Assembly (NCBI RefSeq): GCF_025947185.1 | Contig: NZ_CP110001.1 | Coordinates: forward strand, 3,906,001 to 3,970,000 | Reading direction: 5' to 3' | DNA length: 64,000 nt | Source: Flavobacterium sp. N2038 | Lineage (GTDB): Bacteria; Bacteroidota; Bacteroidia; Flavobacteriales; Flavobacteriaceae | Shown: positions 48,201 through 64,000 of the stretch, piece after piece | Layout: each line of letters begins with the position of its first letter | Position numbering within the stretch: position 1 is the first letter of the stretch | Notes under the pieces: model-generated | What the model saw: only the letters and a program-made list of their open reading frames with translations | Told to the model about the DNA's origin: nothing | The model's database searches: none | Program-made: the position numbers and the translations under genes

Positions 48201-49125
48201 AAGTGCTTCAAATTTGTTGTTTAATGATGGTAATCTAAAAACAGGGGATTTAAGCACTACTGCAGGGATTAAATATTATGACTCAGGCTGGTTAAGCGCT
48301 GAACCTGCAAACAGATGTCCTGTTATCGCTCCTGATTTTACAAATTCTAAAACTGGCGGTACTTTTACGACGGGAACTACGGTAAATGTTGTTTTAACTG
48401 CAAATGCGACAACCTCAACGATTTATTACACTTTAGACGGAACAACTCCTACTACAAGTTCAGCCTCGGCTATTGGCACAAAATCATTTGCTTTTACTGC
48501 AAACACAACTTTAAAAGCTTTCGTAGTCAATACTGCCGGAGTTTCATCAGCAGTCAAAACGGAAGTTTATACTTTTACTGCAGTTCCAACGCTTACGGTA
48601 TATTTTAAACCTCCAACAAACTGGACTGGTGTTCCAAAAGTACATTACTGGAATGCTGTTCCATCGGGAAGTGCGGCAAATACAACCTGGCCAGGCGTTG
48701 CAATGACTGCCGATACAAATGGCTTTTATAAATACACCATTACTGGTCCAACTGCTATAAATGTAATTTTTAACAATGGTTCTAGTGGTTCTGCTAATCA
48801 GACTGCCGATTTACTAAACAAGACAGATGGCTATTCTTATACATGGGGTTCAACTACTTCTAAAATGGCTGTAAATACTGAGACTGAGGAAACACAAACT
48901 TATGCAGTACGTCTGTACCCAAATCCTGTTGAACAAACCTTGCAAATAAACTCCACTATTCCGATAAGCGAATACAGTATTATTTCGGCACAAGGAAGTA
49001 TTGTTCAGGAAGGAAAATCTAATACAAGTACGATTGATGTAAGTCGATTAAGCAAGGGACTTTATTTTATTACTATCAGATTGGAAAATGGTGTGGAAAC
49101 CATGCAAAAGATTATCAAAAAATAA
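45202..49125 (+). CDS. Secreted GH57 amylase with CBM26 and CHB_HEX repeats and T9SS tail
   Basis: A 1307-aa secreted glycoside hydrolase. Signal peptide 1-21; GH57 catalytic domain with W28-HLHQP33, nucleophile E200 in GYWPAECAFSE, and the acid region HDGDNAWGGGSSYY near 339-352. From about 679, three FN3/CHB_HEX-type modules (LYYTTDGSAPT, IYYTLDGTVPT, IYYTLDGTTPT) alternate with three CBM26-type starch-binding modules (starting about 767, 949 and 1131; VYFKKPANW, VYFKKPTNW, VYFKPPTNW). The last 70 residues (RLYPNPVEQTLQI to MQKIIKK) are a type A T9SS sorting domain. It should act on starch or related alpha-glucans at the cell surface or outside. The internal repeats are near 540 bases at DNA level. 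Confidence 0.93.
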   Translation: MKKNLLLLYALVLPFAFLQAQVNTSYLWHLHQPTYWGDVSKKNPNRYQIVKESQDLKLSGANNDKNGLAHPTNNLEEIFGTGDRVAAYQFAPKNAINSIRDLAKAGAQITYGGSLMENVNELAQANQWGYSNSWTQNIKDAKSWKTSSGFSRMEVVSFTMHHALSPLLSDEALKKEIKAHQYYSAQLFGTHDSKGYWPAECAFSERIIKTLTECGIEWSVIANSHLSRTLADYPVKYGSGGTMCDVPNKADQVETIGGTWFSAQKDARGGQFAVPYSYLPYKAKYVDPETAQEYKITVVPMADYESYEDGYATIGTSLIAPIVAKASTSPRPPLVLFAHDGDNAWGGGSSYYNESVTGFSHASAANGNIPTTIPQYLSDNPVPESAVVHVEDGAWVNADGDFGHPQFTNWLWPFFDPVSKKFNPNGWTEDMMNQAITTAGENHAIMAEQLEGNNLRMSEIVNPTSAVSPAEKAWHFLMAGYDSGNAYYGLAEDLEIKTTLAVNRCVQYAKPTLDAHPGVDATKPSVFIPQRWPYNPGEKGYGAPYAYKDFLNSADFTVYTFAYDVSGIEKSELKYRIDVDGKNNLSSNQNETYAGGSEVGSWISLPMAERVFPKGNVTNSTQADLYMLPDVIANQYSAEIAGISEKLLDYYVEVTDKKGNITKSKIQHVWVGKNLDVAPKIAFTPDTGNSTTAIDVTITATDSTDPKPKLYYTTDGSAPTLTSPFVESTKTINVTQTTTIKAFAVDKDGNQSDIVTKTYTIGAIPEFTVYFKKPANWNSAVKVYYWLPTGTAPAVTYPGVAMTQDCGDWYKYTFPSTVTASNLLFNDGTLKTADLNATGGIKYYDGAWLSAEPLNRCPSVAPDFTFSQAGGTFTTGTTVNLTLTANESTSTIYYTLDGTVPTTASTSAVGSKTIAITSTTTLKAFVKNAAGAVSAVKTENYTFSTPTTFTVYFKKPTNWGSAIKIYYWSPTGTAPAVTYPGVVMTQDCGDWYAYTFPSTVSASNLLFNDGNLKTGDLSTTAGIKYYDSGWLSAEPANRCPVIAPDFTNSKTGGTFTTGTTVNVVLTANATTSTIYYTLDGTTPTTSSASAIGTKSFAFTANTTLKAFVVNTAGVSSAVKTEVYTFTAVPTLTVYFKPPTNWTGVPKVHYWNAVPSGSAANTTWPGVAMTADTNGFYKYTITGPTAINVIFNNGSSGSANQTADLLNKTDGYSYTWGSTTSKMAVNTETEETQTYAVRLYPNPVEQTLQINSTIPISEYSIISAQGSIVQEGKSNTSTIDVSRLSKGLYFITIRLENGVETMQKIIKK

Positions 49126-49339: not shown

Positions 49340-51271
49340 CTAACTTTCAGGTGTATTCAGTTTACTATTTTTTCGGCTATATGTAAAGTAGATCAATAAT
49401 CCGATTAATAACCAAATTGTGAAATAAATCCAGTTCCAAACACTTAATTCGGCCATCATGTAAAGACAGCAGATTAATCCTAAAAGCGGAATCAGTGAAA
49501 GATTTTTTCTGAAAGCCCAAACCGTTAATCCGGCTAAAACCAATAAGAAAATCCACATTGGAATTTTGTGTTTAAACAAACTAAACCCTGATTCGTATTT
49601 TGCCGAATCACTAATTGGCAATCCTTTTACAACCTCAGCATATTTAACCTCATCATCTTGATATTGGCTTAATAAATGTTCCAAATCTGAAGTCTCAGAA
49701 GTTTTATTATTTACATCAACGCTTTTTAAATAATTGAAAACTTTTTCAGAATCTTCTTTATTTAATGATGTTACAATTGTTGTCGCATCAAAAGTCTGCG
49801 CCTCGTTATTAATAAAAGCCATTGTCGCTTTATTATTGAATGCAAAAGCATAATACAATCCAACAATAATTAAAGCAGGAAGTATATATTTTGAATTCAC
49901 ATAAGGTGTTTTGAATTTTCCTCTTGGAATATCCGGTTTGTTCTGCAATACCAAAACTCCCGCACAAACCAATACAAAGGCAAACAAAGTTCCGATACTG
50001 CATAAATCTGTAACCATTGTCAGGTTTAAAAATAAAGCCGGTACTGCTACCACAAAACCAGTTACTATAGTTGCAAAAGACGGTGTTTTGAATTTTGGGT
50101 GTACTGTAGAAAATTTCTTTGGTAATAAACCGTCACGGCTCATACTCATCCAGATACGAGGCTGTCCCATCTGAAAAACCAATAAAACACTTGCCATTGC
50201 AATTACTGCACTTACAGCAATAATTCCGGACATCCATTTTAAGTGTAATTTATCAAAAACAAATGCAAGCGGATCACCCACATTTAATTCGCTATAACGT
50301 ACCATTCCGGTTAAAACCAAAGCAATGGCAATATATAAAAGTGTACAGATAATAATTGCCCACATCATTCCGCGTGGTAAATCACGTTGCGGATTTTTAC
50401 ATTCTTCTGCAGTAGTCGAAATAGCATCAAAACCAATATAAGCAAAGAAAACTGCCGAAACTCCTTTTAAAACTCCGCCAACTCCATTTGGTGCAAAAGG
50501 ATCCCAGTTTGCTGTATCTACATAAAATATACCAACAGCAATAACCAAAAGTACAATACAAAGTTTTACAACTACCATTGCGTTACTCGCATTACGAGAT
50601 TCTTTCATTCCTCTGTAAACCAAAGCTGTGATTAAAATAATGATAAACAAAGCAGGCAAATCGGCTACAAAATGAAAAGAACCAATTGTTGGTGCTGTTG
50701 TCCATGCTGTATAAGAAGCCTGTAATGATGCACTTAAGTTTTCGAATGATTTTCCGCCATGCATTAAAGCTGTAGCATCATTAAATCCGTTTGAAGCTGT
50801 TAGGTAATCCATCTGAATCCATTGTGGTAAATGGATTCCTCCACTCTGGAGCAGCGTGGTAAAATAATCGCTCCAGGATATTGCGACCGTTATGTTTCCA
50901 ACGGCATATTCCATAATTAATGCCCAACCAATAATCCAGGCAATGAGTTCCCCAAAAGCAACATACGAGTACGTATAAGCACTTCCTGAAACCGGAACCA
51001 TTGAAGCAAATTCTGCATAAGCAAAAGCAGCAAAACTACATGCCAGTGCTGTAAACAAAAACAAGAAGATTACCGCCGGACCTCCATCTGCACTAGCTTT
51101 TCCGATTGTACTAAAAATACCGGCTCCAACGATTGCTGCAATTCCAAAAGCAGTTAAATCTCTGGTTGTTAAATGCTTTCCTAATGCATTATGACCGTCT
51201 GCTTCGTTTTTTGCAACTTGTTTCAGAATATCCTGTACCGTTTTCTTTCGGAATAAACCTGATAATGCCAT
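49340..51271 (-). CDS. APC-family amino-acid permease
   Basis: A 643-aa inner-membrane transporter. The N-terminal motif (LTAFGIAAIVGAGIFSTIG) and later FFAYIGFDAISTTAEECKNPQRDLPRG are typical of cationic amino-acid transporters of the APC superfamily. About 12-14 membrane helices are visible. A soluble insert of about 90 residues (around 480-570, KEDSEKVFNYLKSVDVNNKT) between the last helix groups is a feature seen in Bacteroidota members. Substrate is unknown, with basic amino acids the best guess. Monocistronic. Confidence 0.9.
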   Translation of the reverse strand: MALSGLFRKKTVQDILKQVAKNEADGHNALGKHLTTRDLTAFGIAAIVGAGIFSTIGKASADGGPAVIFLFLFTALACSFAAFAYAEFASMVPVSGSAYTYSYVAFGELIAWIIGWALIMEYAVGNITVAISWSDYFTTLLQSGGIHLPQWIQMDYLTASNGFNDATALMHGGKSFENLSASLQASYTAWTTAPTIGSFHFVADLPALFIIILITALVYRGMKESRNASNAMVVVKLCIVLLVIAVGIFYVDTANWDPFAPNGVGGVLKGVSAVFFAYIGFDAISTTAEECKNPQRDLPRGMMWAIIICTLLYIAIALVLTGMVRYSELNVGDPLAFVFDKLHLKWMSGIIAVSAVIAMASVLLVFQMGQPRIWMSMSRDGLLPKKFSTVHPKFKTPSFATIVTGFVVAVPALFLNLTMVTDLCSIGTLFAFVLVCAGVLVLQNKPDIPRGKFKTPYVNSKYILPALIIVGLYYAFAFNNKATMAFINNEAQTFDATTIVTSLNKEDSEKVFNYLKSVDVNNKTSETSDLEHLLSQYQDDEVKYAEVVKGLPISDSAKYESGFSLFKHKIPMWIFLLVLAGLTVWAFRKNLSLIPLLGLICCLYMMAELSVWNWIYFTIWLLIGLLIYFTYSRKNSKLNTPES

Positions 51272-51668: not shown

Positions 51669-54575
51669 TCACTTAAGACAATTTCTCAAAATACTTACCG
51701 GATGCTGTGCTTCTCTGCTTGTTCCGTCAAAAATCTGATGACGACAACTTGTTCCTGCTGCAGCAATTTTTACGTTTTCGGCAGTAGCACGCACTTTTGG
51801 GAATAACGTATCCTCTCCCATTTGCATACTCACGTTATAATGTTCTTTTTCATAACCAAAAGAACCCGCCATTCCGCAGCAACCCGAATTGTAAATGGTA
51901 ACTGTATTATTTTTTGGCAGATTTAACATGGCAAAGGTCGCTTCAACAGAACTCAAAGATTTCTGATGGCAATGTCCGTGAATTTTTATCTCTTTAGTTT
52001 CTTCCGAAAAAGAATCAGCTTTGATTTTTCCGTCGACAATTTCTTTTTTAAAAAATTCCTCAATCGTAAAGGCATTTCCTGCTAATTTCTCTGCAGCTTC
52101 TTTATCATCCGCTAAACGAAGATATTCATCTCTAAAAGTCAAAATAGCCGAAGGTTCAATGCCAATTAAAGGCGTATTACCCGAAACCAGATCTTTAAAA
52201 ACCTTTACATTATGATTGGCAATTTGTTTCGCCTCTTCCAGAAATCCTTTAGAAAGATAGGTTCTTCCGCTTTCTTCATGATCTACAATCAAAACCTGAT
52301 ATCCTAGTTTTGTCAACAATTCAAATGCGTCAATTCCAATATTTACATCATAATAATTCGTGAATTCATCCACAAACAAATACAATCTTCCATTTGGAAA
52401 ATCGGTCGTTTTAGGTTTATTATTTTCGTGCCATTTTCTGAAGGTCTTTTTAGCCAATAACGGTACTTGCCTTTCCGGTGCAATTCCCATTGTTTTTTTC
52501 ACCAAAGCCTGATTCGATATAAAATTGGTAATCGACGGGAATTTACTTCCCATTTTATTCAGCTTGGCATTGTTGGCAAAAATCTTATTTCGCGTAGAAA
52601 ATCCGTTTGCTTTTTGATATTGGTATAAAAATTCTGCCTTTAAAGTAGCTACGTCTACGTTACTCGGACATTCGCTCGCGCAGGCTTTACAGCTTACACA
52701 CAACTCAAAAACTTCGTATAATTCTTTCTGGTCAAATTTATTTTCTTTTTCAGAATAAGTAAGATATTCTCTCAGCGCATTGGCTCTCGCACGCGTTGTT
52801 TCCTTTTCATTTTTAGTCGCCCGATAACTCGGACACATAGCTCCTCCTGCCGATGGTAATTTCCTGCAATCACCCGAACCGTTGCATTTTTCAGCAGCAC
52901 GCAAAATCCCCATACTATCCGAGAAATCCTGAAACGTTTTAATATCCGGTTCTACCCTGCCCGAAACGACACGATGATTTTCGTCCATTTTCAAAGCATT
53001 TACAATCTTTCCAATATTCAAAACCGAATTAGGATCGAATGCTATTTTTAGTCTTTTCAGTAACTCATAATTTTTATCCCCAATCATAAACGGAATAAAC
53101 TCACCACGCACAATTCCGTCACCATGCTCTCCGCTTAACGAACCTCTGTATTTTTTTACCAAATGCGCTACATCAGTTGCAATGGTTCTAAACAATTTTA
53201 AATCAGCAGTTTTCTTCAAATTCAAAACCGGACGCAAGTGCAATTCTCCGGCACCGGCATGTGCATAATAAATCGCTTCCTGACCGTGACTTAACATCAT
53301 TGCCGAGAACTCTGCAATATAATTGGGTAAATCGCTCAACTCAACCGCCGTATCTTCAATAGAATCTGCCGCTTTGTTATCACCAACAATACTTCCTAAA
53401 AGTCCCAGACCCGCTTTTCTCAGTTCGTTGGCTTTATCAATATCAGCACCATAAATTTTTACCTTAGCATAACCAAAATTATATTTTTCCAGATCGGCAA
53501 TTAAATCATTAGCCTGTTTTTCAGCATCCTCCAGCGTATGTGCTGCCACTTCAAACAACATAATTGCTTTAGGTTCTCCTACCAGAAAAAAACGATTTTT
53601 AATATGTTCACGATTTGTCTTCGTGCAATCCAGAATCGTGTCATCGATCATTTCACAAGTGTACAAATGATGCTTCATTGCCACCACGACAGATTCCAGC
53701 GATTCCTGAATCGTATGATAATGTCCCACCACCATAATATTATGAACAGGAGGCAAATCATCTACTTTTAAGGTAACCTCGGTAGTAAAAGCCAAAGTTC
53801 CTTCACTTCCGCAAAGCAGTTTTCCTAAGTTAATGGTAGATTCAGTTCCGCCAAATAAATCTGATTTTAGCAGGATATCAACCGCATAACCTGTATTTCT
53901 TCTATGAATTTCTGGTTTTGGAAACTCTTTTACAATTTCGTCCTGCACTTCTTTAATCGAAAGCTCGTCGTAAATCGTTTTGTATATTTTATTTTCTAAA
54001 GTGTCCCCTTTTGTTTTCTCTATAAATTCTTCGGCAGTCAGGTCTTTAAAAACTACTTCAGAACCATCGCTTAATATTGCTTTAACCTCAGCAATTTTAT
54101 CACGTGTGACACCATATCGAATCGAAGTCGTTCCAGACGAGTTATTCCCTACCATTCCGCCAATCATCGCACGATTTGATGTTGATGTAATTGGGGCAAA
54201 AAATACACCATGAGGTTTTAAAAATAAATTCAGCTCATCGCGAATTACACCTGGCTGAACTGTAACGGTTTTCTTTTCGGCATCATACGAAATGATTTTT
54301 GTAAAATGCTTCGAAACATCAATAACCAATCCGTCTCCTACTGCCTGCCCTGCCAATGATGTTCCTGCAGTTCTTGGTGTAATCGAAATATTATGCTCAG
54401 CTGCAAACCGTATTAATTTAACAATATCGGCTGTCGTTTTAGGCAATGCCACTGCATTTGGCCTTATTCGATACACCGACGCATCTGTAGAATAAAGTGT
54501 TTTATGAAGTTCATCATATAAAAGTGTACCCTCGAGAGTACCAGCTAATTGCTCTAAATGAGATTGGGTCAACAT
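51669..54575 (-). CDS. Fused FAD-linked oxidase / Fe-S dehydrogenase (D-lactate or glycolate type)
   Basis: A 968-aa GlcD-GlcF-like fusion. Residues about 1-560 are a PCMH-type FAD domain (TPRTAGTSLAGQAVGDGLVI; GNNSSGTTSIRYG) with the FAD-oxidase C domain (GSLSGEHGDGIVRGEF). A 4Fe-4S ferredoxin-like part follows (CVSCKACASECPSNVD; CNGSGDCRKL), and the C-terminus has CCG cysteine-rich motifs (HGHCHQKSL; GCCGMAGSFGYE). It probably oxidises D-lactate or a related 2-hydroxy acid and passes electrons to the quinone pool. The start at 54575 is chosen because a TATATTTT promoter-like box lies just before it; an in-frame ATG at 54626 would sit upstream of that box. Confidence 0.88.
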   Translation of the reverse strand: MLTQSHLEQLAGTLEGTLLYDELHKTLYSTDASVYRIRPNAVALPKTTADIVKLIRFAAEHNISITPRTAGTSLAGQAVGDGLVIDVSKHFTKIISYDAEKKTVTVQPGVIRDELNLFLKPHGVFFAPITSTSNRAMIGGMVGNNSSGTTSIRYGVTRDKIAEVKAILSDGSEVVFKDLTAEEFIEKTKGDTLENKIYKTIYDELSIKEVQDEIVKEFPKPEIHRRNTGYAVDILLKSDLFGGTESTINLGKLLCGSEGTLAFTTEVTLKVDDLPPVHNIMVVGHYHTIQESLESVVVAMKHHLYTCEMIDDTILDCTKTNREHIKNRFFLVGEPKAIMLFEVAAHTLEDAEKQANDLIADLEKYNFGYAKVKIYGADIDKANELRKAGLGLLGSIVGDNKAADSIEDTAVELSDLPNYIAEFSAMMLSHGQEAIYYAHAGAGELHLRPVLNLKKTADLKLFRTIATDVAHLVKKYRGSLSGEHGDGIVRGEFIPFMIGDKNYELLKRLKIAFDPNSVLNIGKIVNALKMDENHRVVSGRVEPDIKTFQDFSDSMGILRAAEKCNGSGDCRKLPSAGGAMCPSYRATKNEKETTRARANALREYLTYSEKENKFDQKELYEVFELCVSCKACASECPSNVDVATLKAEFLYQYQKANGFSTRNKIFANNAKLNKMGSKFPSITNFISNQALVKKTMGIAPERQVPLLAKKTFRKWHENNKPKTTDFPNGRLYLFVDEFTNYYDVNIGIDAFELLTKLGYQVLIVDHEESGRTYLSKGFLEEAKQIANHNVKVFKDLVSGNTPLIGIEPSAILTFRDEYLRLADDKEAAEKLAGNAFTIEEFFKKEIVDGKIKADSFSEETKEIKIHGHCHQKSLSSVEATFAMLNLPKNNTVTIYNSGCCGMAGSFGYEKEHYNVSMQMGEDTLFPKVRATAENVKIAAAGTSCRHQIFDGTSREAQHPVSILRNCLK

Positions 54576-54626
54576 GGAAGTGGTGCTTTTGTGTAAAAAT
54601 ATATTCTGAAAATACTGAGTTAGCAA

Positions 54627-55275
54627 ATATAAAAATATAGCAGTTTAAATTGATATTAATTGTGATTTTATCCCATTTTCCTATTGGATCTTATAAATTT
54701 CTAAGAGAATCCTGTAAAGTATTCCACTTTTAAAATCTCCAATTTTAGGATTTTACTTTCTTATGTCTTTCTTATTAAAGAAAATTTTCTGCGATTTATA
54801 ATCTACGACGTTATCACAACTAAATTCTCACAATAAAAAAACAATTAAAAGTCAATTACTTTTCACAATTCAAAAAACGCATAAAAATGCAAATAAACAT
54901 CTTCCCAACCTTTGAATTCAATGAAAATCAGTTTTAAACTACCTAAATCAGTTTTGTTTTATCTTTTACAAAAATACAAATCTAATTCAAATATAAGGCT
55001 CCACAATTTTTTTTTAGATAATCAAAACTAACCCTAAACAAAACAATCCCTCTTAAATAAACCACTAAAACAATGAATATCAATTAGTTAACTATAAACA
55101 AATTTAAGAAAATTCTTAAATCACAGCTTGAAAAACTTACTAAAACCAAATCATCTCAAAACAAAAACTGCATTATTATGCATTATTAAGGAAATTTTAC
55201 AAAATTTCGACATAAAATTGCTATGTTTTAAAAATATTTTATACATTTCGGCCCTCTAACCATTAATTAACCCTT
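54627..55275. promoter_or_regulatory. Long AT-rich upstream region of susC with promoter
   Basis: About 650 bases without a gene. TTG (55218-55220), 21 bases, then TACATTTC (55242-55249), one base from TAnnTTTG, gives a likely susC promoter with transcription starting about 20 bases before the ATG at 55276. The rest is runs of A and T with no palindromic element. The length suggests binding of a regulator, and no sigma/anti-sigma or hybrid two-component gene lies next to it. Confidence 0.5.
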
Positions 55276-58200
55276 ATGAAAAAAAAGCATTTAGTTCTTT
55301 TACTTTTCATTTTTGGAATACTAACCAGTTATTCGCAAAACAATCTAGTAAAAGGTAAAGTTACAGACGCCAGTGGCAACACACTACCAGGCGCAAATAT
55401 TGCAGTACAGGGAACCAAAGATCAGACCTCAACCGGGACTGACGGTACCTTTTCTATCAAAGCAAATCAAGGACAGGTACTTCTTGTTTCTTATATTGGC
55501 TTTAATACCAAAGAAGTCATAGTAAATGGCAGCAATATGAATATCGTAATTTCAGAAAGCGCCCAGACTTTAAACAATGTTACAATTGTAGGTTCTATGG
55601 GTATTGTTAGAAACAAATCATCTTTAGGATATTCGGTACAGGAAGTAAAAGGAAAAGAAATTGCCGAAACGCAGCGTCCTAACTTTGCAACAGCGCTACA
55701 AGGGCGTGTTGCAGGTCTTACGGTAACCAGTACTTCGGGTGCTCCGGGTGCTTCTGCCGCAATTCAGTTAAGAGGTGTAAATTCGCTTAGCGGAAGCAAC
55801 TCTCCTTTGTATGTTATTGACGGTTTACCGGTGAGTAACGAAACTATGAATCAGAATTTAACTATTTCTGATGCTCCAAACAGAACTCAGGATTATACCA
55901 ACAGAGGTGCCGATATTAATCCGGAAGATATTGAATCTGTAGTAATCTTAAAAGGTCCGGAAGCTGCTGCACTTTACGGAATGCAGGCCGGAAACGGAGC
56001 AATTGTTATTACGACCAAAAAGGGAAAAAAAGGAGTTGGAAGACTTACTTACTCTACCAATACCCGTTTTGATAATCTATACCGTTTTCCGGAAATACAG
56101 AGAGTTTACCAAAGAGGTTCTGACGGAGTAAACAATCCGGATTACAGAAGACAATTTGGAACGGCTTACGATCCGGGAACTAAATTTTACAACAATGTAG
56201 AAAACTTCTTTAAAACGGGAGTATCAACTACTCATAATTTATCGTTTGAAGCCGGTACAGAAAGTACTTCATACCGCTTATCTATCTCAAATTTAGATCA
56301 GGAAGGCGTTATACCTAATACAGGCTACAGCCGTCTGACTGCAAATTTGAATGCTTCTGCAAAATTATCTTCAAAATTAAGATCTGAGGCTTCTTTTAAT
56401 TTCACAAAATCAGACAATCAAAAAGCAGCCAAAGGAGCCGGACAGGCAGTACAAATTCCAGGTATTTCAGGCGCAGGATATTTACTTTCGTTATTAACCT
56501 GGCCAGCAAATGACGATGCCAGCGTATATTTGAATGCTGACGGAACCAGAAGAAAAATTACAAGTGGTGCTTTGGATACCGAAACAGATAATCCGTTTTG
56601 GGATGTAAACAAAAACTTGTCTGAAGATTTCAATAATCGTTTTATTACCAATGTTGGTTTAGTTTACGATCCAACTTCATGGCTTAACTTTACCGGTCGC
56701 GTGGGCTGGGATGTAAATTCTGCTCAGGGTTACAGAGCAATTCATCCGGAATCTGCTGCCGGAATCTCTTCTCAGGGGTATATTGAATCCTACTATTCTA
56801 ATACGAGTAATTTAAACACTACTTTATTAGCTACAGCTAAAAAATCATTCGGAAAATTCAACACCAAAATTATGGTGGGTAATGCTGTAAACGATAACGA
56901 TTTTAGAATTTTATCTACAACAGGAAGCAAATTCTTTGATCCTAATTTTTATTCAATCAATAATACAGATGCTTCTACGCAAAGATCTCAGGAAAGAATT
57001 ATTCAGAGCCGAATTATAGGTTTCTTCTCTGAGATGAGTTTTGATTATGACAAACTTGTTTATCTAACTTTAACAGGGCGTGAAGACTGGACTTCTGTAT
57101 TACCGGATCCGTTTTTCTATCCTTCTGTTGCATCAAGTTTTGTTTTCTCAAACTTAAATGGACTTAAAGACAAAGAAACATTTTCTTACGGAAAATTCAG
57201 AATTTCGTATGCTGAAGCTGCTAATATTCCGTCGCCATATTCTGCAGAACCGGTTTTTACTCCTCAAGGTACAACAGACGGAGGTTATGCTTATGGTGTT
57301 ACGGGAGCAAATGCCTATTTGAAACCTGAATTTCGTAAATCATTTGAATTGGGTACAGAATTAAAATTCTTCAAAAATCGCGTTGGACTGGATGTTGCAG
57401 TATATAGCACCAAAACAATCGATCCGATTTTGAAAAATATGCGTTTAAGCTACGGAACCGGATTTGTGGTTACGTCTGCTAACTTTGGAGATTTAAAAAA
57501 TGAAGGTTTAGAAATCACCGTGAATGCTACGGCTGTGAAAAAGGAAAATTTCTCATGGGATGTAAGCGCTAACTTTAGCAAAACACGTTCAGAATTATTG
57601 AATCTTCCTTCTGTAATTTCAGAATATTATGTTTCTGATACCTGGCTTTACGGGAATGTTCGCGGAGGTGTAACTGTCGGAAATCCATTAACAACTTTAA
57701 CAGGGAATGATTATTTAAGAAACAATGCCGGCGCACCTTTAATTGATCCAAACACAGGTTATCCTTTAAAAGATCCGAACTTTAAAATTGTAGGAGACAG
57801 AAATCCTGATTTTATGCTTGGTCTGCAAAATACATTTGTATACAAAAACCTAAGTTTATCTTTCTTATTAGACATTAGAAAAGGTGGTGATATTTACAAC
57901 GCAACAGAATTCTATTTGTACCAAAACGGTTTGTCTACCAAAACTCTGGACCGCGAACAAACCAGAATTGTAAAAGGTGTTTTGAGAGACGGTTTAGAAA
58001 ATTCGGCTAACCCTACGCAAAACAATATTCCGGTACGTCCAAGTGTACAAAACGAATATTACAGAACAGGTGCGATCGATGCCGATTTTATCGAAAAAGA
58101 CATCAACTGGCTAAGAATGAGAGACATTACTTTAAGCTATCAAATGCCTTCAGAAATCCTGAAGAAAACGTTCATCAACAATCTTTCTCTATACCTGACT

Positions 58201-58356
58201 ATGACAGATGCTTTTATTATTACCAATTATACCGGAGCAGATCCTTCGGTTAACGGAACTAATGCATCAACCGGAGGTGCCGGAGGAACAGGTTTTGACT
58301 TTGGGGTAACCTCTACTCCACGAGGTTTGAACTTAGGATTAAAAATCGGACTTTAA
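55276..58356 (+). CDS. SusC/RagA-family TonB-dependent transporter
   Basis: A 1026-aa outer-membrane beta-barrel. Signal peptide 1-21; a carboxypeptidase-like regulatory domain (VKGKVTDASGNTLPGANIAV, about 24-105); a TonB plug with SusC marks (FATALQGRVAGLTVTSTSGA; SPLYVIDGLPVSNETMNQN); and a barrel ending in TPRGLNLGLKIGL. It works with the SusD lipoprotein starting 10 bases downstream to take up oligomers using TonB energy. The downstream enzymes suggest muropeptides or peptidoglycan fragments as cargo, which is an inference. Confidence 0.94.
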   Translation: MKKKHLVLLLFIFGILTSYSQNNLVKGKVTDASGNTLPGANIAVQGTKDQTSTGTDGTFSIKANQGQVLLVSYIGFNTKEVIVNGSNMNIVISESAQTLNNVTIVGSMGIVRNKSSLGYSVQEVKGKEIAETQRPNFATALQGRVAGLTVTSTSGAPGASAAIQLRGVNSLSGSNSPLYVIDGLPVSNETMNQNLTISDAPNRTQDYTNRGADINPEDIESVVILKGPEAAALYGMQAGNGAIVITTKKGKKGVGRLTYSTNTRFDNLYRFPEIQRVYQRGSDGVNNPDYRRQFGTAYDPGTKFYNNVENFFKTGVSTTHNLSFEAGTESTSYRLSISNLDQEGVIPNTGYSRLTANLNASAKLSSKLRSEASFNFTKSDNQKAAKGAGQAVQIPGISGAGYLLSLLTWPANDDASVYLNADGTRRKITSGALDTETDNPFWDVNKNLSEDFNNRFITNVGLVYDPTSWLNFTGRVGWDVNSAQGYRAIHPESAAGISSQGYIESYYSNTSNLNTTLLATAKKSFGKFNTKIMVGNAVNDNDFRILSTTGSKFFDPNFYSINNTDASTQRSQERIIQSRIIGFFSEMSFDYDKLVYLTLTGREDWTSVLPDPFFYPSVASSFVFSNLNGLKDKETFSYGKFRISYAEAANIPSPYSAEPVFTPQGTTDGGYAYGVTGANAYLKPEFRKSFELGTELKFFKNRVGLDVAVYSTKTIDPILKNMRLSYGTGFVVTSANFGDLKNEGLEITVNATAVKKENFSWDVSANFSKTRSELLNLPSVISEYYVSDTWLYGNVRGGVTVGNPLTTLTGNDYLRNNAGAPLIDPNTGYPLKDPNFKIVGDRNPDFMLGLQNTFVYKNLSLSFLLDIRKGGDIYNATEFYLYQNGLSTKTLDREQTRIVKGVLRDGLENSANPTQNNIPVRPSVQNEYYRTGAIDADFIEKDINWLRMRDITLSYQMPSEILKKTFINNLSLYLTMTDAFIITNYTGADPSVNGTNASTGGAGGTGFDFGVTSTPRGLNLGLKIGL

Positions 58357-58366
58357 TTAACTGACC

Positions 58367-59980
58367 ATGAAAAACATAAAAACATATATAGCAGCATTAG
58401 GTCTTGTAACTACAATGATTTCCTGCAATGATTTAGAAGATATAAACGTAAATCCAAGTTTTCCTGTTGATGTTTCGGCAACAGCATTAATGCCGCCAAT
58501 TGAACAGCAAATGGCGGTTGGATTACAATTTGACAACCGTTGTTTAGGGCGATACACTCAAAATTTTAGTATTGCAACTGTTGGTGCAACAGGAAGCGAA
58601 TGGGATCGCTTTGGTTATCAAGCCAGTAGTGATACCGGAGGAGAAATCTGGAAAATGACCTATTTTGCCATTGGTCTAAACTTAAGCAAACTACAGGAAA
58701 AAGCAATTGCTGAACAACGTCACGATATTACTGGTATTTCAAAAATTATCAGAGCCTGGACATGGCAGGTTGCAACCGATTATCACTCTGAATTAATTGA
58801 CTTTGATCAGGTTTTTACGCAACGTCTTTCTTTTGATTATGTTTCGCAGGAAAAAGTATATGCAGAGGTGGTACGTTTATTAAATGACGGAATGACGGAT
58901 CTGGCGCGTACAGACGGAAATATTTCGCAGACTTATACAGCCGGAGGAGACAAAATGTATGGTGGTGACCGCTCAAAATGGGTTAAATTTGCCTATGGTG
59001 TTTTGGCCAGAAACCTTAACAATCAAATCAATAAAGCAACGTATGACCCAAATAAAGTAATTGAATATTGCGATAAATCATTGGCTTCTAACGCAGACAA
59101 TGCTGTAACAAAATATAACGGAACTGTTTCTGCCGATATCAACTTTTATGGCCCGGGAAGAAACAACTTTAATACGTTTCGCCAATCTGATTTTGCAGTA
59201 AGAACTATGAATGGAGTAATTTTTAATGGTGCAGTCGATCCAAGAATGGCACGAGTTCTAGCGCCTTCTGTTGGACTTTCTGAAACTGCCCCTGCATCTG
59301 CAGCAAATCCGGATCCGAGTAAATATACTTTTAATGGAAATCCGTTAAACACGACAGCTTCAACCGTTGCAACAAACCTAAGCAGAATTCCAAATTTTTA
59401 CGGAACATATGCAGCAGGAACGATTTCAACTCCGGGAAGATATCTTTTTAGAGATAAAGCCAATTTTCCGATCATGACTTATTCTGAAATTCAGTTTATT
59501 AAAGCCGAAGCAGCTTTCATTAAAGGAGATAAAGCAATGGCCCTTGAAGCTTACAAAAAAGGAATTGATGCCAGCATTGATTTTGTAAATTCAAATACGG
59601 TTGTAAGTACTACTTTTCCAATTACCTCAACTATCACAGCTGCAGAAAAAGCTGCTTTCTTAGCCAACGTAAATATTGTTCCTGCCGCTGCAAATTTGAC
59701 TATTGCACAGATTATGCTTCAAAAGTATGTGGCTTTATACGGTTTTGGATTATTGGAAACCTGGACTGATATGCGTAAATATCATTACAACACAGATATT
59801 TATAAAACAATGACTTTTACTCCAAACGGAGGATTGTTTGTTGACAACAACGGAAAATTGCCCTACAGAGTTCGTCCGAGATTTAACTCAGAATATGTTT
59901 GGAACTTTGATGCTTTAAAGGCCATTGGCGCTGACAAAGTAGATTACCATACCGAAGAAATGTGGTTTTCTAAACCGTAA
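58367..59980 (+). CDS. SusD/RagB-family lipoprotein
   Basis: A 537-aa outer-surface lipoprotein (lipobox LVTTMISC, C20). It is the lid of the SusCD complex. The start NDLEDINVNPSFPVDVSATA, the TPR-like helices (IIRAWTWQVATDYHSELIDF; YAEVVRLLNDGMTDLART) and the ending FPIMTYSEIQFIKAEAAFIK, MRKYHYNTDIY, PYRVRPRFNSEY match the SusD-like group. It is 10 bases after susC. Cargo is unknown; see the locus finding. Confidence 0.93.
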   Translation: MKNIKTYIAALGLVTTMISCNDLEDINVNPSFPVDVSATALMPPIEQQMAVGLQFDNRCLGRYTQNFSIATVGATGSEWDRFGYQASSDTGGEIWKMTYFAIGLNLSKLQEKAIAEQRHDITGISKIIRAWTWQVATDYHSELIDFDQVFTQRLSFDYVSQEKVYAEVVRLLNDGMTDLARTDGNISQTYTAGGDKMYGGDRSKWVKFAYGVLARNLNNQINKATYDPNKVIEYCDKSLASNADNAVTKYNGTVSADINFYGPGRNNFNTFRQSDFAVRTMNGVIFNGAVDPRMARVLAPSVGLSETAPASAANPDPSKYTFNGNPLNTTASTVATNLSRIPNFYGTYAAGTISTPGRYLFRDKANFPIMTYSEIQFIKAEAAFIKGDKAMALEAYKKGIDASIDFVNSNTVVSTTFPITSTITAAEKAAFLANVNIVPAAANLTIAQIMLQKYVALYGFGLLETWTDMRKYHYNTDIYKTMTFTPNGGLFVDNNGKLPYRVRPRFNSEYVWNFDALKAIGADKVDYHTEEMWFSKP

Positions 59981-60008
59981 TTTTTTATAAATTAAAAAGC
60001 TAAATCAA

Positions 60009-60938
60009 ATGAAAAATATATTTAATAGTTTTAAAAAGTGCCTGATTCCGGTTCTGGGTGTACTGGCACTTACCTCTTGTGGTGACGAAAATGATTTTAC
60101 CCCTTATCAGACTAAAGACGGAATTGCAAATGCCTCTAATGTAAAATTTGTACATGCCGCTGTTGGTCCAAACGGAACTAATTTTCAAATCAATTATTTT
60201 ACAGGTTCTGAAAAAATCTCCGCTGTAGGTGTTACAACCGGTATACCTATCGGAATGGGCTATGGAGCACAATATCCGGCGCCGATTAATTATACTCTAA
60301 TGAAACCCGGAACACAGCCTTTAAGCATTTTAACGCCTGTTGTTCCGGCAACTGCAACAAAACCGGAAGTTCCGGCAGTGACTATTTATGATGGAAATAT
60401 CGTAACCGAAGCCGGAAAAAATTACACTAGTTTCTTATTGTCGACGCCACCATCAGTATCGCCGCCTGTTTATTCTCTTTATCAGTTAAATGATGATTTA
60501 TCGGTAGCTAATTTAGATCCTTCAAAAGCTTATATTCGCTTTATAAATGTAATCAGTAATTCTGCTCCTGTTGGATATGATTTAGGCATTCTAAAAGAAA
60601 CATCTTTAAGTGGTGCAGTACCTGTTACAACAAAGGAAATCTACACCTATAGAAATGTAACTTTTAAAGGAGGAGACGAAAAATACATTGCCATAGAACC
60701 ACAAAGTCCAATAGATACTCGTGGTTATCAGTTACAGCTTCGTGTGGCGGGTTCTCCAACAAATGTTCCGGGAACCATTACAGGTACAACAATTGCAAAT
60801 CTTGCTAATACACCTGCAGGTACCGCTTTTGTTCCAAGAGCAGGCAGAATTTATACCATTTTTTGCCGTGGAATTGTTGGTGGAATACCAAACGCAACAA
60901 CAAATATTCCAACGCTTGCCTTTATTACCAATAAATAA
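60009..60938 (+). CDS. DUF4397 lipoprotein
   Basis: A 309-aa lipoprotein (lipobox LGVLALTSC, C24) starting 28 bases after susD, so it is part of the SusCD operon. ASNVKFVHAAVGPNGTNFQI is the hallmark of DUF4397; a second, similar segment is KAYIRFINVISNSAPVGYDL. Both are beta-rich Ig-like units. It is probably a surface accessory protein of the SusCD complex (SusE/F-like position), perhaps binding glycan. A perfect hairpin follows. Confidence 0.85.
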   Translation: MKNIFNSFKKCLIPVLGVLALTSCGDENDFTPYQTKDGIANASNVKFVHAAVGPNGTNFQINYFTGSEKISAVGVTTGIPIGMGYGAQYPAPINYTLMKPGTQPLSILTPVVPATATKPEVPAVTIYDGNIVTEAGKNYTSFLLSTPPSVSPPVYSLYQLNDDLSVANLDPSKAYIRFINVISNSAPVGYDLGILKETSLSGAVPVTTKEIYTYRNVTFKGGDEKYIAIEPQSPIDTRGYQLQLRVAGSPTNVPGTITGTTIANLANTPAGTAFVPRAGRIYTIFCRGIVGGIPNATTNIPTLAFITNK

Positions 60939-60944
60939 TTTTAA

Positions 60945-60983
60945 AAATTCGAACCACTTATAAATCAAAAGTGGTTCGAATTT
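60945..60983 (+). terminator. Hairpin after DUF4397 gene
   Basis: AAATTCGAACCACTT pairs perfectly over 15 bp with AAGTGGTTCGAATTT (60969-60983), ending in TTTAATATT. It probably ends or reduces the susCD transcript before namZ. Confidence 0.8.
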
Positions 60984-61049
60984 AATATTCAATTTTTCTT
61001 TTTATGCTTTATTAAACGTAATTTTAATTGCAATTTAAACTTTTGTATT

Positions 61050-62246
61050 ATGTTTCAATCCTTCAAAAAAATCACTTTTATTTTATTTTTGATCATTTGT
61101 AATTTGTCGAATGCATGTTCTTCAACAAAAATTATTAAAAGTAAAATCAATAGTATCAATAGCGAAATCAAAACAGGAGCTGATAATTTCGAAAAATATA
61201 TTCCTTTACTAAAAGGCAAAAAAGTGGGTGTTATCACCAATCAAACCAGTATTTTAAGCAATAAAACACATTTGGTAGATTTTTTACTGGAGAAAAAAAT
61301 AACCATCAAAACCATCTTTGCTCCCGAACACGGATTTAGAGGAACTGCCGATGCCGGCGAACATGTCGTAGATGGAAAAGATGCCAAAACCGGGCTTTCA
61401 ATCGTTTCACTTTACGGAGATAACAGAAAACCTAAAAAAGAACAACTAACCGGAATTGATGTAATGGTTTTTGATCTGCAGGATGTTGGAGCGAGATTCT
61501 ATACCTATATTTCGTCTTTGCATTATGTGATGGAAGCTTGTGCAGAAAACAATATTCCGTTAATTATCTTAGATCGCCCAAACCCAAACGGAAGCATTGT
61601 TGACGGACCTTTACTTGAAAAAGAATTTACAAGTTTTGTAGGAATGCACCCAATTCCTATTTTGCATGGAATGACAATTGGGGAATATGGTAAAATGATT
61701 AATGGCGAAAAATGGCTTAAAGACGGAATACAATGCAAACTGACTGTAATCCCTTGTTCCAATTACAAAAGAGATATGCCGTATAGTCTTCCGGTAAAGC
61801 CTTCACCAAATCTTCCGAACGATCAGGCAATAAATCTCTATGCCAGTTTATGCTTATTTGAAGGAACGAATGTAAGCGTTGGAAGAGGAACCGAAAAACA
61901 ATTTCAAATTTATGGTTCTCCCTTTTTAACCAAAGGAAGTTTCTCCTTCACTCCAAAACCTAATTTTGGGGCAAAAGAACCTGTTTACAACGGACAGGAA
62001 TGTTATGGTGAAGATCTTTCTGCTGCTTCAAAAGTAACGCAGTTCGAATTGCACTGGTTGCTAAAAGCATATCAAAACACGAGCGACAAATCTAAGTTTT
62101 TTAATGCCTTTTTTACAAAACTGGCAGGAACAAAAAAGCTACAGCAGCAAATAGAATCGGGCGTTTCAGAGAAAGTTATTCGCGATAGCTGGAAAAAAGA
62201 TCTGGACGCTTTTAATACCATGCGAAAAGCGTATCTGCTTTATTAA
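61050..62246 (+). CDS. namZ: Exo-beta-N-acetylmuramidase (NamZ, DUF1343)
   Basis: A 398-aa lipoprotein (C23 in NLSNAC). DUF1343 motifs are complete: GVITNQTSIL, FAPEHGFRGTADAGEHV, VMVFDLQDVGARFYTYISS, LDRPNPNGSIVDGPLLE, GMHPIPILHGMTIGEYG and VSVGRGTEKQFQIYGSP. The characterised members (Bacillus subtilis, Tannerella forsythia NamZ) remove MurNAc from the non-reducing end of peptidoglycan glycans. Here it would act in the periplasm, giving free MurNAc for the following genes. Its own promoter is probably within the 66 bases after the preceding hairpin, but no clear match was found. Confidence 0.93.
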   Translation: MFQSFKKITFILFLIICNLSNACSSTKIIKSKINSINSEIKTGADNFEKYIPLLKGKKVGVITNQTSILSNKTHLVDFLLEKKITIKTIFAPEHGFRGTADAGEHVVDGKDAKTGLSIVSLYGDNRKPKKEQLTGIDVMVFDLQDVGARFYTYISSLHYVMEACAENNIPLIILDRPNPNGSIVDGPLLEKEFTSFVGMHPIPILHGMTIGEYGKMINGEKWLKDGIQCKLTVIPCSNYKRDMPYSLPVKPSPNLPNDQAINLYASLCLFEGTNVSVGRGTEKQFQIYGSPFLTKGSFSFTPKPNFGAKEPVYNGQECYGEDLSAASKVTQFELHWLLKAYQNTSDKSKFFNAFFTKLAGTKKLQQQIESGVSEKVIRDSWKKDLDAFNTMRKAYLLY

Positions 62247-62378
62247 ACCAATCTTTTTAACCTCATTTTAATCTTATCTAATTTTCTGTTTTTATATAAA
62301 ACGGTAGTTTATAATACAAAATATCAAAAGCATTCAATCAAAAAATATTGGTTTTAAAAATCCACAAAAAAAAGAAAA

Positions 62379-63200
62379 ATGAATAATAAAAATCCTGAAA
62401 CTGAACAAGAGTCTTTATACAAAGACCTGGATCAAATGAGTGTTAAAGAGTTACTCATCAACATTAATACAGAAGACAAAAAAGTGCCGGATATTATCGA
62501 ACAGCAGATTCCGAAAATAGAAAAACTGGTAAAAGCAATTGTAAAAAAAATGCAATTGGGCGGCCGGTTATTTTATATTGGAGCCGGAACTTCGGGACGT
62601 ATCGGGATTTTGGATGCTTCAGAATGTCCACCAACTTTTGGTGTTCCGCATGATATGATTATTGGGATTATTGCCGGCGGCGACACCGCTATCAGAAAAG
62701 CGGTTGAAAATGCTGAAGATGATACCGAACAAGCATGGAAAGATTTAGCTAAATTTGAGATTTCGAGTCTGGATTTTATTATTGGAATTGCGGCTTCAGG
62801 AAATACCCCTTATGTTTTGGGTGCTCTTAAAAAAGCTAAAGAATATAATATCAAAACAGGAAGTATTTCCTGCATCAGTAATGGACTTATTGCTCAGGAA
62901 GCAGATCATCCGATTGAGCTCATTGTTGGCCCGGAATTCCTGACCGGAAGTACAAGAATGAAAGCCGGAACAGCTCAAAAACTGACTTTGAACATGATTT
63001 CGACTTCGGTAATGATTAAACTCGGAAAGGTGAAAGGAAACAAAATGGTAGACATGCAATTGTCTAACGAAAAACTGGTAAAACGCGGCATCAAAATGAT
63101 TATGGAAGAACTTGGAATCGAATATGAAATAGCCGAAGAATTACTGCAAAAACATAAAAGTGTACGCGCCGTGTTGTTAGACCACAACAGCAAAAAATAA
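62379..63200 (+). CDS. murQ: N-acetylmuramic acid 6-phosphate etherase
   Basis: A 273-aa cytoplasmic SIS-domain enzyme that splits the lactyl ether of MurNAc-6-phosphate to give GlcNAc-6-phosphate and D-lactate. The signature FYIGAGTSGRIGILDASECPPTFG region (near 65-88) includes the catalytic glutamate in SECPP, and AVENAEDD holds the second one. FLTGSTRMKAGTAQK follows. The C-terminus is somewhat shorter than in E. coli MurQ, as usual in Bacteroidota. It lies 132 bases after namZ and 23 bases before the transporter start. Confidence 0.96.
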   Translation: MNNKNPETEQESLYKDLDQMSVKELLININTEDKKVPDIIEQQIPKIEKLVKAIVKKMQLGGRLFYIGAGTSGRIGILDASECPPTFGVPHDMIIGIIAGGDTAIRKAVENAEDDTEQAWKDLAKFEISSLDFIIGIAASGNTPYVLGALKKAKEYNIKTGSISCISNGLIAQEADHPIELIVGPEFLTGSTRMKAGTAQKLTLNMISTSVMIKLGKVKGNKMVDMQLSNEKLVKRGIKMIMEELGIEYEIAEELLQKHKSVRAVLLDHNSKK

Positions 63201-63223
63201 ATTAATTTCTAAATCTCAGCCAA

Positions 63224-64000
63224 ATGTCATCAACCACAATTCTAATTTTCATATTTGTATATTTTGGTCTTCTGCTTTTAATTTCTAATGTAATTAGCAA
63301 AAAAGGACAAGACAATGATTCTTTCTTTAAAGCAAATAAAAATTCTAAATGGTATTTAGTTGCTTTTGGTATGATTGGAACTGCACTTTCCGGGGTGACC
63401 TTTATTTCGGTACCGGGTGAAGTAGGTTCGCCAAACGGAGAACAATTCAAATATTTTCAGTTTGTTTTAGGAAATGCAATTGGATTTATCATCATTGCAA
63501 AAGTCCTGCTTCCACTCTATTACAGAATGAATCTAACCTCGATATATAGTTATATAGAACAACGAATGGGAGTTAAAAGTTATAAAACTGCCGCTTCTAT
63601 ATTTTTAGTAAGCAGAACCGTAAGTTCAGCATTTAGATTGTATTTGGTTGTGATTGTTTTACAACGTTACGTTTTCAATGATTTTAATATTCCGTTTCCG
63701 GTGACGGTGCTTTTAGCTCTTATGCTGATTTTTCTATACACTTTCAGAAGTGGTTTAAAAACAATCATTATTACAGACACTTTACAAACGTTCTTTTTAG
63801 TAAGTTCTGTTTTTATCACTATTTATTTTGTTTGTGACAGTTTAAATTTAACTGTTCTTGAGTCGGTTTCAACCATTCAGAAAAGCAACTATTCTAAAAT
63901 ATTTTTCTTTGATGATTTCTTTACCAGCAAATATCATTTTGTAAAACAAATTTTAGGAGGAATGTTTGTTACTATTGCAATGGTTGGACTGGATCAGGAT
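63224..64000 (+). CDS. Sodium:solute symporter, N-terminal part (partial, cut by window end)
   Basis: Open from the ATG at 63224 to the last base, 259 codons seen. It is a multi-helix inner-membrane protein of the SSS family: ILIFIFVYFGLLLLISNVIS, then WYLVAFGMIGTALSGVTFIS with VPGEVG, YSYIEQRMGVKSYKTAASIF, and LVSRTVSSAFRLYLVVIVL. The position after murQ suggests uptake of MurNAc or another amino sugar released by NamZ, as in Tannerella forsythia where a transporter lies with murK and murQ. Specificity is inferred from context. Confidence 0.85.
   Translation, partial: MSSTTILIFIFVYFGLLLLISNVISKKGQDNDSFFKANKNSKWYLVAFGMIGTALSGVTFISVPGEVGSPNGEQFKYFQFVLGNAIGFIIIAKVLLPLYYRMNLTSIYSYIEQRMGVKSYKTAASIFLVSRTVSSAFRLYLVVIVLQRYVFNDFNIPFPVTVLLALMLIFLYTFRSGLKTIIITDTLQTFFLVSSVFITIYFVCDSLNLTVLESVSTIQKSNYSKIFFFDDFFTSKYHFVKQILGGMFVTIAMVGLDQD

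Follow-up and report, generated by a model that had tools for sequence, protein, structure and literature searches.

A SusCD-associated locus of Flavobacterium for the probable utilization of peptidoglycan, with interchangeable receptor cassettes

Why does a SusC-SusD receptor pair lie beside genes for the breakdown of N-acetylmuramic acid (MurNAc) in Flavobacterium sp. N2038? The genes in question occupy the right end of a 64,000-nucleotide stretch, henceforth the window (contig NZ_CP110001.1, positions 3,906,001 to 3,970,000; the genome consists of one contig of 4.67 Mb), and continue into a fetched stretch, L004, whose coordinates become window coordinates by addition of 61000. The initial annotation of the window, made from its letters and open reading frames (ORFs), had placed genes for SusC, SusD, a DUF4397 lipoprotein, NamZ, MurQ and a sodium/solute symporter (SSS) on one strand and had read them as a system for peptidoglycan and MurNAc salvage. 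All six ORFs lie on the forward strand as predicted, and the salvage interpretation is supported in substance by the genes to the right of the window and by the co-conservation of susCD with the cluster; the substrate of SusCD is deduced from the neighbouring genes. Most probably, this is a dedicated peptidoglycan-utilization locus with interchangeable SusCD cassettes. The strongest additions to the initial annotation are that alternating SusCD cassettes were found only with this locus, that they share an operator-like repeat, and that a dehydrogenase gene travels with them.

Within the genus, loci were retrieved by means of the NagZ-like fusion protein of glycoside hydrolase family 3 (GH3) encoded to the right of the window, and the best 80 of 276 loci were kept. 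The cluster arrangement recurs in dozens of these. In the 49 loci that were scored (murQ present, with 9 kb or more of sequence upstream of nagZ), namZ and a DUF5009 gene were found without exception, and SusC and the symporter gene sss in 48 each; the stretch of L073, which lacks SusC, is taken up by namZ-like genes and by genes that look GH20-like by eye. NagZ stands alone in 26 further loci, whose fusion proteins show 63–68% identity and where the rest of the set was not found. Taken singly, the genes are near-universal in the family sample (NamZ in 147 and MurQ in 143 of 149 genomes), hence neither gene alone is informative, whereas the cluster is. MurQ of the locus type (at least 73% identity) occurs in 25 of 101 Flavobacterium genomes, or 26 if G494 is included, where a contig end interrupts the same locus, which has a MurQ of 75% identity. 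Every one of the 25 murQ genes adjoins a same-strand susD of one of three types, namely A (query from L038) in 15, B (SusD1 of the window) in six, and C (SusD2, right of the window) in seven genomes; outside the 25 genomes, SusDs of these types were detected only in G494 at the thresholds used. Since the sampled genomes are related, the query for type A was taken from a locus within this genus (with a 100% match in the sample), and scoring was confined to the top candidates of each genome (13 to 17 of up to 59), 25/25 is a count of co-occurrence rather than a probability. Co-conservation of susCD with namZ-murQ, on which the initial annotation had staked its interpretation, is thus borne out by SusC in 48 of the 49 murQ loci as well as by the adjacent SusDs.

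The receptors themselves are far from uniform. By BLASTP, SusD of type B shows no significant similarity to types A or C, similarity between A and C is weak (26% over 230 residues), and the SusCs of the cassette types share 26–28%. The best-matching Pfam families differ among the three SusDs, all within the SusD group, type A matching the families of both B and C. On a tree of 50 NagZ proteins, obtained by a quick search with support from the Shimodaira–Hasegawa-like approximate likelihood ratio test (SH-aLRT) and with L030 and L044 labelled as C only, the SusCD type changes at least nine times, shuffled labels averaging 12.9 changes; strongly supported branches force seven changes for type A and five for type B. 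The tree neighbours L025 (type A) and L037 (type B), for instance, combine similar cores with a different receptor. Two cassettes occur at once in the genome of strain N2038, in G550 and in L044 (all B and C), and in L030 (A and C). The alternation could reflect replacement or, in part, loss from two-cassette ancestors; replacement is favoured by the shared position of types A and B, both of which sit between operator and namZ. On balance we lean towards a model in which a fixed catabolic core with its operator acts as a socket that has received dissimilar SusCD cassettes on seven to nine or more occasions, in some cases two of them together. The cassettes would differ in the peptidoglycan chemotype that they recognize (by cross-link, O-acetylation or chain ends), or would let the cell change a phage or bacteriocin receptor while its metabolism stays unchanged.

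The dissimilar SusCs are preceded by the same repeat. A tandem 10-bp element (TGCRTTATTW twice) is common to the 34 deoR-susC intergenic stretches from which the pattern was derived; the window site was not among these, and together with the control stretches and the left-arm sites it provides the more independent evidence. In the window, an operator candidate, TGCATTATTA, matches without mismatch at 55169..55187 (+), about 98 bp before the susC ATG, a second site with two mismatches at 54873..54891 (−) faces the dehydrogenase gene, and a promoter-like sequence of the Bacteroidota type, TTG-N21-TACATTTC, lies at 55218..55249 (+). At up to two mismatches, the repeat was found in 47 of the 49 locus stretches, but in none of 25 stand-alone NagZ and none of 20 control MurQ stretches; it misses L053 and L057, where susC runs off the fetched stretch. 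Mostly it is located 70–106 bp before the called susC start, in types A, B and C alike, and 17 of the 34 intergenic stretches have a TAnnTTTG box 73–75 bp downstream of it, a spacing that would be compatible with activation. In all of 20 fetched left arms, the repeat is present on that side of deoR which faces susC, or before susC, and in 19 there is an additional left-side copy (up to two mismatches). Two sites at up to three mismatches in the window compare with a mean of 0.44 in shuffled sequences, six of 100 shuffles containing at least two, and 23 of 200 shuffles of L004 contained one repeat site; as each single site is weak against shuffles, it is the recurrence that carries the claim. 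A gene for a DeoR-family regulator (L004:7194-7943, −) and the conserved repeat are both present; that the regulator binds the repeat, and what its effector and sign would be, we infer.

A gene for a fused FAD/Fe-S dehydrogenase (51669..54626, −; PF01565, PF02913, Fer4) is located divergently upstream of the cluster. The suggestion of the initial annotation that its product consumes D-lactate gains support, since 45 of 47 loci have an orthologue on the same contig, in divergent orientation upstream of the cluster and 9.3 to 20.1 kb away from nagZ (12.6 kb in L022, 12.4 kb in L028, 20.07 kb in L044), and four of seven SusCD-bearing stretches of other genera (G021, G117, G146, G109) have one inside the cluster. 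Of the 45 linked genes, 44 are full-length or nearly so, and L037 has a fragment of 235 residues. Many genomes have a second copy elsewhere that is closer to the protein of the window (84–93%) than the locus copy (76–79%), so the locus copy often is a separate paralogue. Our designation as a D-2-hydroxyacid dehydrogenase is limited to the FAD_binding_4/FAD-oxidase_C/Fer4 architecture. Because MurQ-family enzymes yield D-lactate, this compound is the natural substrate, and we propose a D-lactate dehydrogenase, with D-2-hydroxyglutarate as the alternative substrate.

Beyond Flavobacterium, namZ lies near murQ in at least 10 of 149 family genomes (placed by eye); these genomes, as well as 20 murQ controls, were picked by eye. 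SusC-SusD genes belong to the same cluster in seven of the nine other fetched namZ-near-murQ stretches, compared with one of the 20 control murQ stretches, several of which contain a lone weakly SusC-like ORF without SusD. The gene order for which the initial annotation had suggested a search in other Flavobacteriia recurs, in altered form, in seven other genera. NagB-like genes are present in four of the seven stretches (G021, G013, G146, G109; one was scanned, PF01182). Among 11 further stretches fetched for other reasons, four (G028, G096, G372, G383) have SusCD beside murQ. Some clusters of other genera also contain a gene for a large DUF6259 protein near sss and murQ (L089:6325-8700, L090:15434-17716), and one encodes a GH18 protein with a sorting tail of the type IX secretion system (T9SS; L089:11270-12733), a candidate secreted enzyme for starting the attack.

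Within the window, the forward-strand series begins with SusC1, a TonB-dependent outer-membrane transporter (55276..58356, +; TIGR04056, 597 bits, cut-off 368), and SusD1, a surface lipoprotein (58367..59980, +; PF12771, 115 bits, and SusD homologues in the PDB), which together form the type B cassette; a second copy of SusD1 was not found in the genome at E≤1e-40. The small lipoprotein encoded at 60009..60938 (+) is confirmed as such, whereas its assignment to DUF4397 is marginal, its 20.3 bits falling under the Pfam gathering score of 30.6; a relative in L098 passes with 57.9 bits. A structure model and fold comparison predict two β-sandwich domains, and the fetched loci contain 13 homologous ORFs, which come from 12 genomes. 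The lipoprotein travels with type B SusCD and is a possible glycan-binding accessory. Between its gene and namZ, a hairpin with 15-bp arms was read by eye from the sequence (60945..60983, +); through processing or otherwise, it could keep the enzyme genes at a lower level of expression than susCD. NamZ (61050..62246, +), of the exo-β-N-acetylmuramidase family, carries both NamZ domains (PF07075, 288 bits; PF20732, 115 bits; PDB entry 4jja, E 8e-111), and the locus-type MurQ (62379..63200, +; 273 amino acids) scores above the TIGR00274 cut-off for MurNAc-6-phosphate etherases (320.7 against 302 bits). The SSS symporter of 501 amino acids, which starts at 63224 and runs past the window edge (L004:2224-3729, +), reaches 123.6 of 184 bits for TIGR00813. 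The initial annotation had it bring in MurNAc, a role for which it is now one of two candidates, the other being a DUF5009 protein. With adjacent susC and susD genes and co-located genes of glycan-degrading enzymes (NamZ, the GH3 fusion and a GHL10 protein), the locus shows two features of a polysaccharide utilization locus (PUL).

To the right, where a MurK-type kinase or a GH3 NagZ had been anticipated, a NagZ-like GH3 protein but no such kinase was found. The fusion protein (L004:3749-6748, +) combines a NagZ-like part (PF00933, 266.6 bits; ybbD/NagZ chains, E 7e-62) with a β-lactamase fold (PF00144, 145.6 bits). Despite the GH3 domain and the ybbD/NagZ matches, we call it only NagZ-like because it stays under the equivalog cut-off of PRK05337 (171.5 of 207 bits); the nearest NCBIfam of the other half, PBP4B, gives 153.6 of 385 bits, and we presume this half to be comparable to AmiE, an amidase acting on MurNAc-L-Ala. 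The deoR gene follows, and a copy of the operator-like repeat with two mismatches (L004:8056-8074, +) precedes a second SusCD pair, SusC2 (L004:8164-11226, +) and the type C SusD2 (L004:11242-12519, +); the one pair recognized initially therefore stands, as one of two. Rather than genes for an unrelated sugar, the locus thus holds on this side the NagZ-like fusion, AnmK (L004:12607-13812, +; NF007149, 669.6 bits, cut-off 616) and an AmpG-like permease (L004:16783-18105, +; best family TIGR00901, 191 of 350 bits). Between the latter two lie genes for a DUF5009/NagX-like membrane protein (L004:13859-15130, +; 165.7 of 480 bits) and a glycosidase of the GHL10/Cwp19 type (L004:15225-16796, +; PDB relative Cwp19). 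The DUF5009/NagX-like gene is steadier across locus stretches than that of AnmK or the AmpG-like permease. At the place after ampG, many loci encode a protein weakly similar (31–34%) to about half of the GH3 fusion, as does L073 (L073:18539-20143).

Elsewhere in the genome, at about 2.195 Mb, a MurK-like kinase of 283 amino acids is encoded (PDB entry 8ow9, 'Putative novel MurNAc kinase', E 8e-43; PF01869, 21.6 bits, below the cut-off of 31.5), as are NagA (above cut-off) and two NagB-like proteins; with these, the genome plausibly has the genes to convert MurNAc into fructose-6-phosphate. AnmK would provide a second entry, for anhydro fragments.

In the left arm, an amino-acid permease of the APC family (49340..51271, −; PF13520, 204 bits), a possible satellite of the locus, is encoded next to the dehydrogenase; it is also found near the dehydrogenase in L135, L139, L140, L148, L155, L157 and L160, and may take up amino acids of stem peptides. 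An esterase-family gene (PF00756) was identified near the dehydrogenase by a scan of L147:6508-7332, and ORFs of that size are present in 16 of 20 left arms; its product is a possible peptidoglycan O-acetylesterase, none being seen in the left arm of the window. Further left, at 45202-49125, a secreted protein of 1307 amino acids with repeated modules appears by eye to be amylase-like, with a T9SS-like tail.

From the family assignments, the following pathway may be proposed for strain N2038. SusCD would import soluble peptidoglycan fragments of other bacteria across the outer membrane. In the periplasm, the NagZ-like/β-lactamase-fold fusion would remove N-acetylglucosamine (GlcNAc) and also, if it acts as AmiE does, stem peptides, NamZ would free MurNAc from non-reducing ends, and the Cwp19-like glycosidase would produce anhydro ends. 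Free MurNAc could then enter via the SSS symporter or the DUF5009 protein and be phosphorylated by the MurK-like kinase encoded elsewhere, while the AmpG-like permease would admit anhydro fragments for conversion to MurNAc-6-phosphate by AnmK. MurQ would split MurNAc-6-phosphate into GlcNAc-6-phosphate, to be channelled into glycolysis by NagA and NagB, and D-lactate, to be oxidized by the FAD/Fe-S dehydrogenase. The DeoR-family regulator, probably sensing an amino-sugar phosphate, would act at the tandem-repeat operator, serving both arms and whichever SusCD cassette is present.

Parts of this set are known from other bacteria. The ybb operon of Bacillus subtilis (murQ-murR-murP-amiE-nagZ-namZ) likewise unites MurQ, NagZ, a β-lactamase-fold hydrolase and NamZ for MurNAc catabolism from wall fragments. 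It presumably relies on uptake by a phosphotransferase system and on MurR, whereas the locus described here has the NagZ-like and β-lactamase-fold parts fused in one protein and comprises SusCD, SSS, AnmK, an AmpG-like permease, DeoR and the D-2-hydroxyacid dehydrogenase. The ybbC gene of Tannerella forsythia belongs to the NamZ family. As far as the consulted sections of the accounts go, T. forsythia has a nine-gene operon, ampG-ybbC-murT-murK-murQ, under GppX, grows on exogenous MurNAc and muropeptides, is auxotrophic for MurNAc and has no predicted AnmK orthologue; these sections contain no SusCD, TonB or outer-membrane route (PMC5388701, PMC7670621). The two systems are alike in coming from Bacteroidota, in an AmpG or AmpG-like permease, a NamZ-family gene and MurQ, and in the link to growth on muropeptides, which is proposed for the locus described here, but in T. 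forsythia murK is part of the operon, the regulator is a hybrid two-component protein, AnmK is not predicted and MurNAc is required. With SusCD PULs the locus shares the SusC-SusD pair, co-located glycosidases, a candidate inner-membrane transporter and a putative local regulator; it differs in that the substrate would be peptidoglycan, the putative regulator is of the DeoR type and the receptor cassettes alternate. According to parts of a survey of 13,537 PULs, GH23, 24, 25 and 73 are strongly under-represented in PULs, yet present in several (PMC6499787). No SusCD locus for peptidoglycan was found described in the literature searched, in which subscription journals are mostly not represented.

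Several observations weigh against the proposed function. The SusD types are dissimilar and therefore need not bind one ligand. AnmK was found in only 24 of the 49 loci, and GHL10 and AmpG in 17 each (right flanks of 10 kb at most); L043 keeps SusCD, namZ and nagZ without murQ or sss. In G113 and G147, namZ lies near murQ with no SusCD pair within the fetched 20 kb, and the control G085 has SusCD, along with a GHL10-like gene, beside a murQ of the ordinary type. The locus contains no MurNAc kinase gene, and the MurK-like protein also matches PDB entries named N-acetylglucosamine kinase (E 8e-37). The NagZ-like, AmpG-like, SSS and DUF5009 proteins and the β-lactamase-fold half all score under the named NCBIfam cut-offs. 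The dehydrogenase is likewise under named equivalog cut-offs (594 of 1350 bits for the D-2-hydroxyglutarate dehydrogenase YdiJ), and no orthologue of it was found in the genomes of L053 and L057 at E≤1e-50. An excerpt of one article states that Chryseobacterium outperforms F. johnsoniae in the degradation of Gram-positive peptidoglycan (PMC11892949, citing Peterson 2006).

Might the enzymes simply salvage the turnover fragments of the cell's own wall, with SusCD recapturing leakage? NamZ and MurQ are, after all, near-universal in the family, and five of the 20 control murQ genes lie in small clusters with nagB-, ampG-, nagZ- and anmK-like genes that lack SusCD. Moreover, the sole NamZ match of the genome sits in this locus, which therefore may also serve self-recycling. 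Self-recycling requires no SusCD, however, and a second MurQ (63% identical), whose gene has no such neighbours, is encoded at 3.474 Mb; the repeat is missing from the stretches with stand-alone NagZ or ordinary murQ, nearly all of which also lack SusCD, and the presence of locus-type murQ in only a minority of congeners is unlike a core function. We therefore regard recycling as an unlikely explanation of the locus.

Import of another GlcNAc-rich glycan, such as chitin or oligosaccharides of N-glycans, with the MurNAc genes linked through shared GlcNAc-6-phosphate metabolism, appears less likely still. Sister loci with GH20 and the other-genus cluster with the T9SS-tailed GH18 would fit, as both enzymes can act on chitin or N-glycans, and chitin binders are among the PDB relatives of the SusD fold; but MurNAc or anhydroMurNAc compounds are the substrates of the NamZ, MurQ, AnmK and AmpG families, and D-lactate, whose presumed dehydrogenase travels with the locus, arises from MurNAc-6-phosphate. 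Mere coincidence in PUL-rich genomes, which at first look contain up to 59 SusD candidates each, is hardly credible in view of the adjacency in 25 of 25 cases, of three SusD types that, at the thresholds used, did not turn up in other places (the exception, G494, being due to a contig break), and of the same repeat before dissimilar SusCs.

A dedicated peptidoglycan-utilization locus would also bear on an older observation, as Peterson et al. in 2006 reportedly saw soil flavobacteria use Bacillus peptidoglycan. The consulted parts of later articles state, citing Peterson 2006, that B. cereus supplies peptidoglycan fragments as a carbon source for F. johnsoniae (PMC6401489, PMC10936215). In the same literature, mostly without subscription journals, no description was found of the genes for this flavobacterial use of Bacillus peptidoglycan or of an outer-membrane route for the fragments in Bacteroidota. 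The locus is a plausible basis for the reported ability of F. johnsoniae, and it offers a candidate, amenable to knock-out, for both the genes of peptidoglycan use and the outer-membrane route. Alternating receptors under one operator constitute a natural experiment on the contribution of SusCD to specificity, and the system would extend the SusCD paradigm to bacterial necromass.

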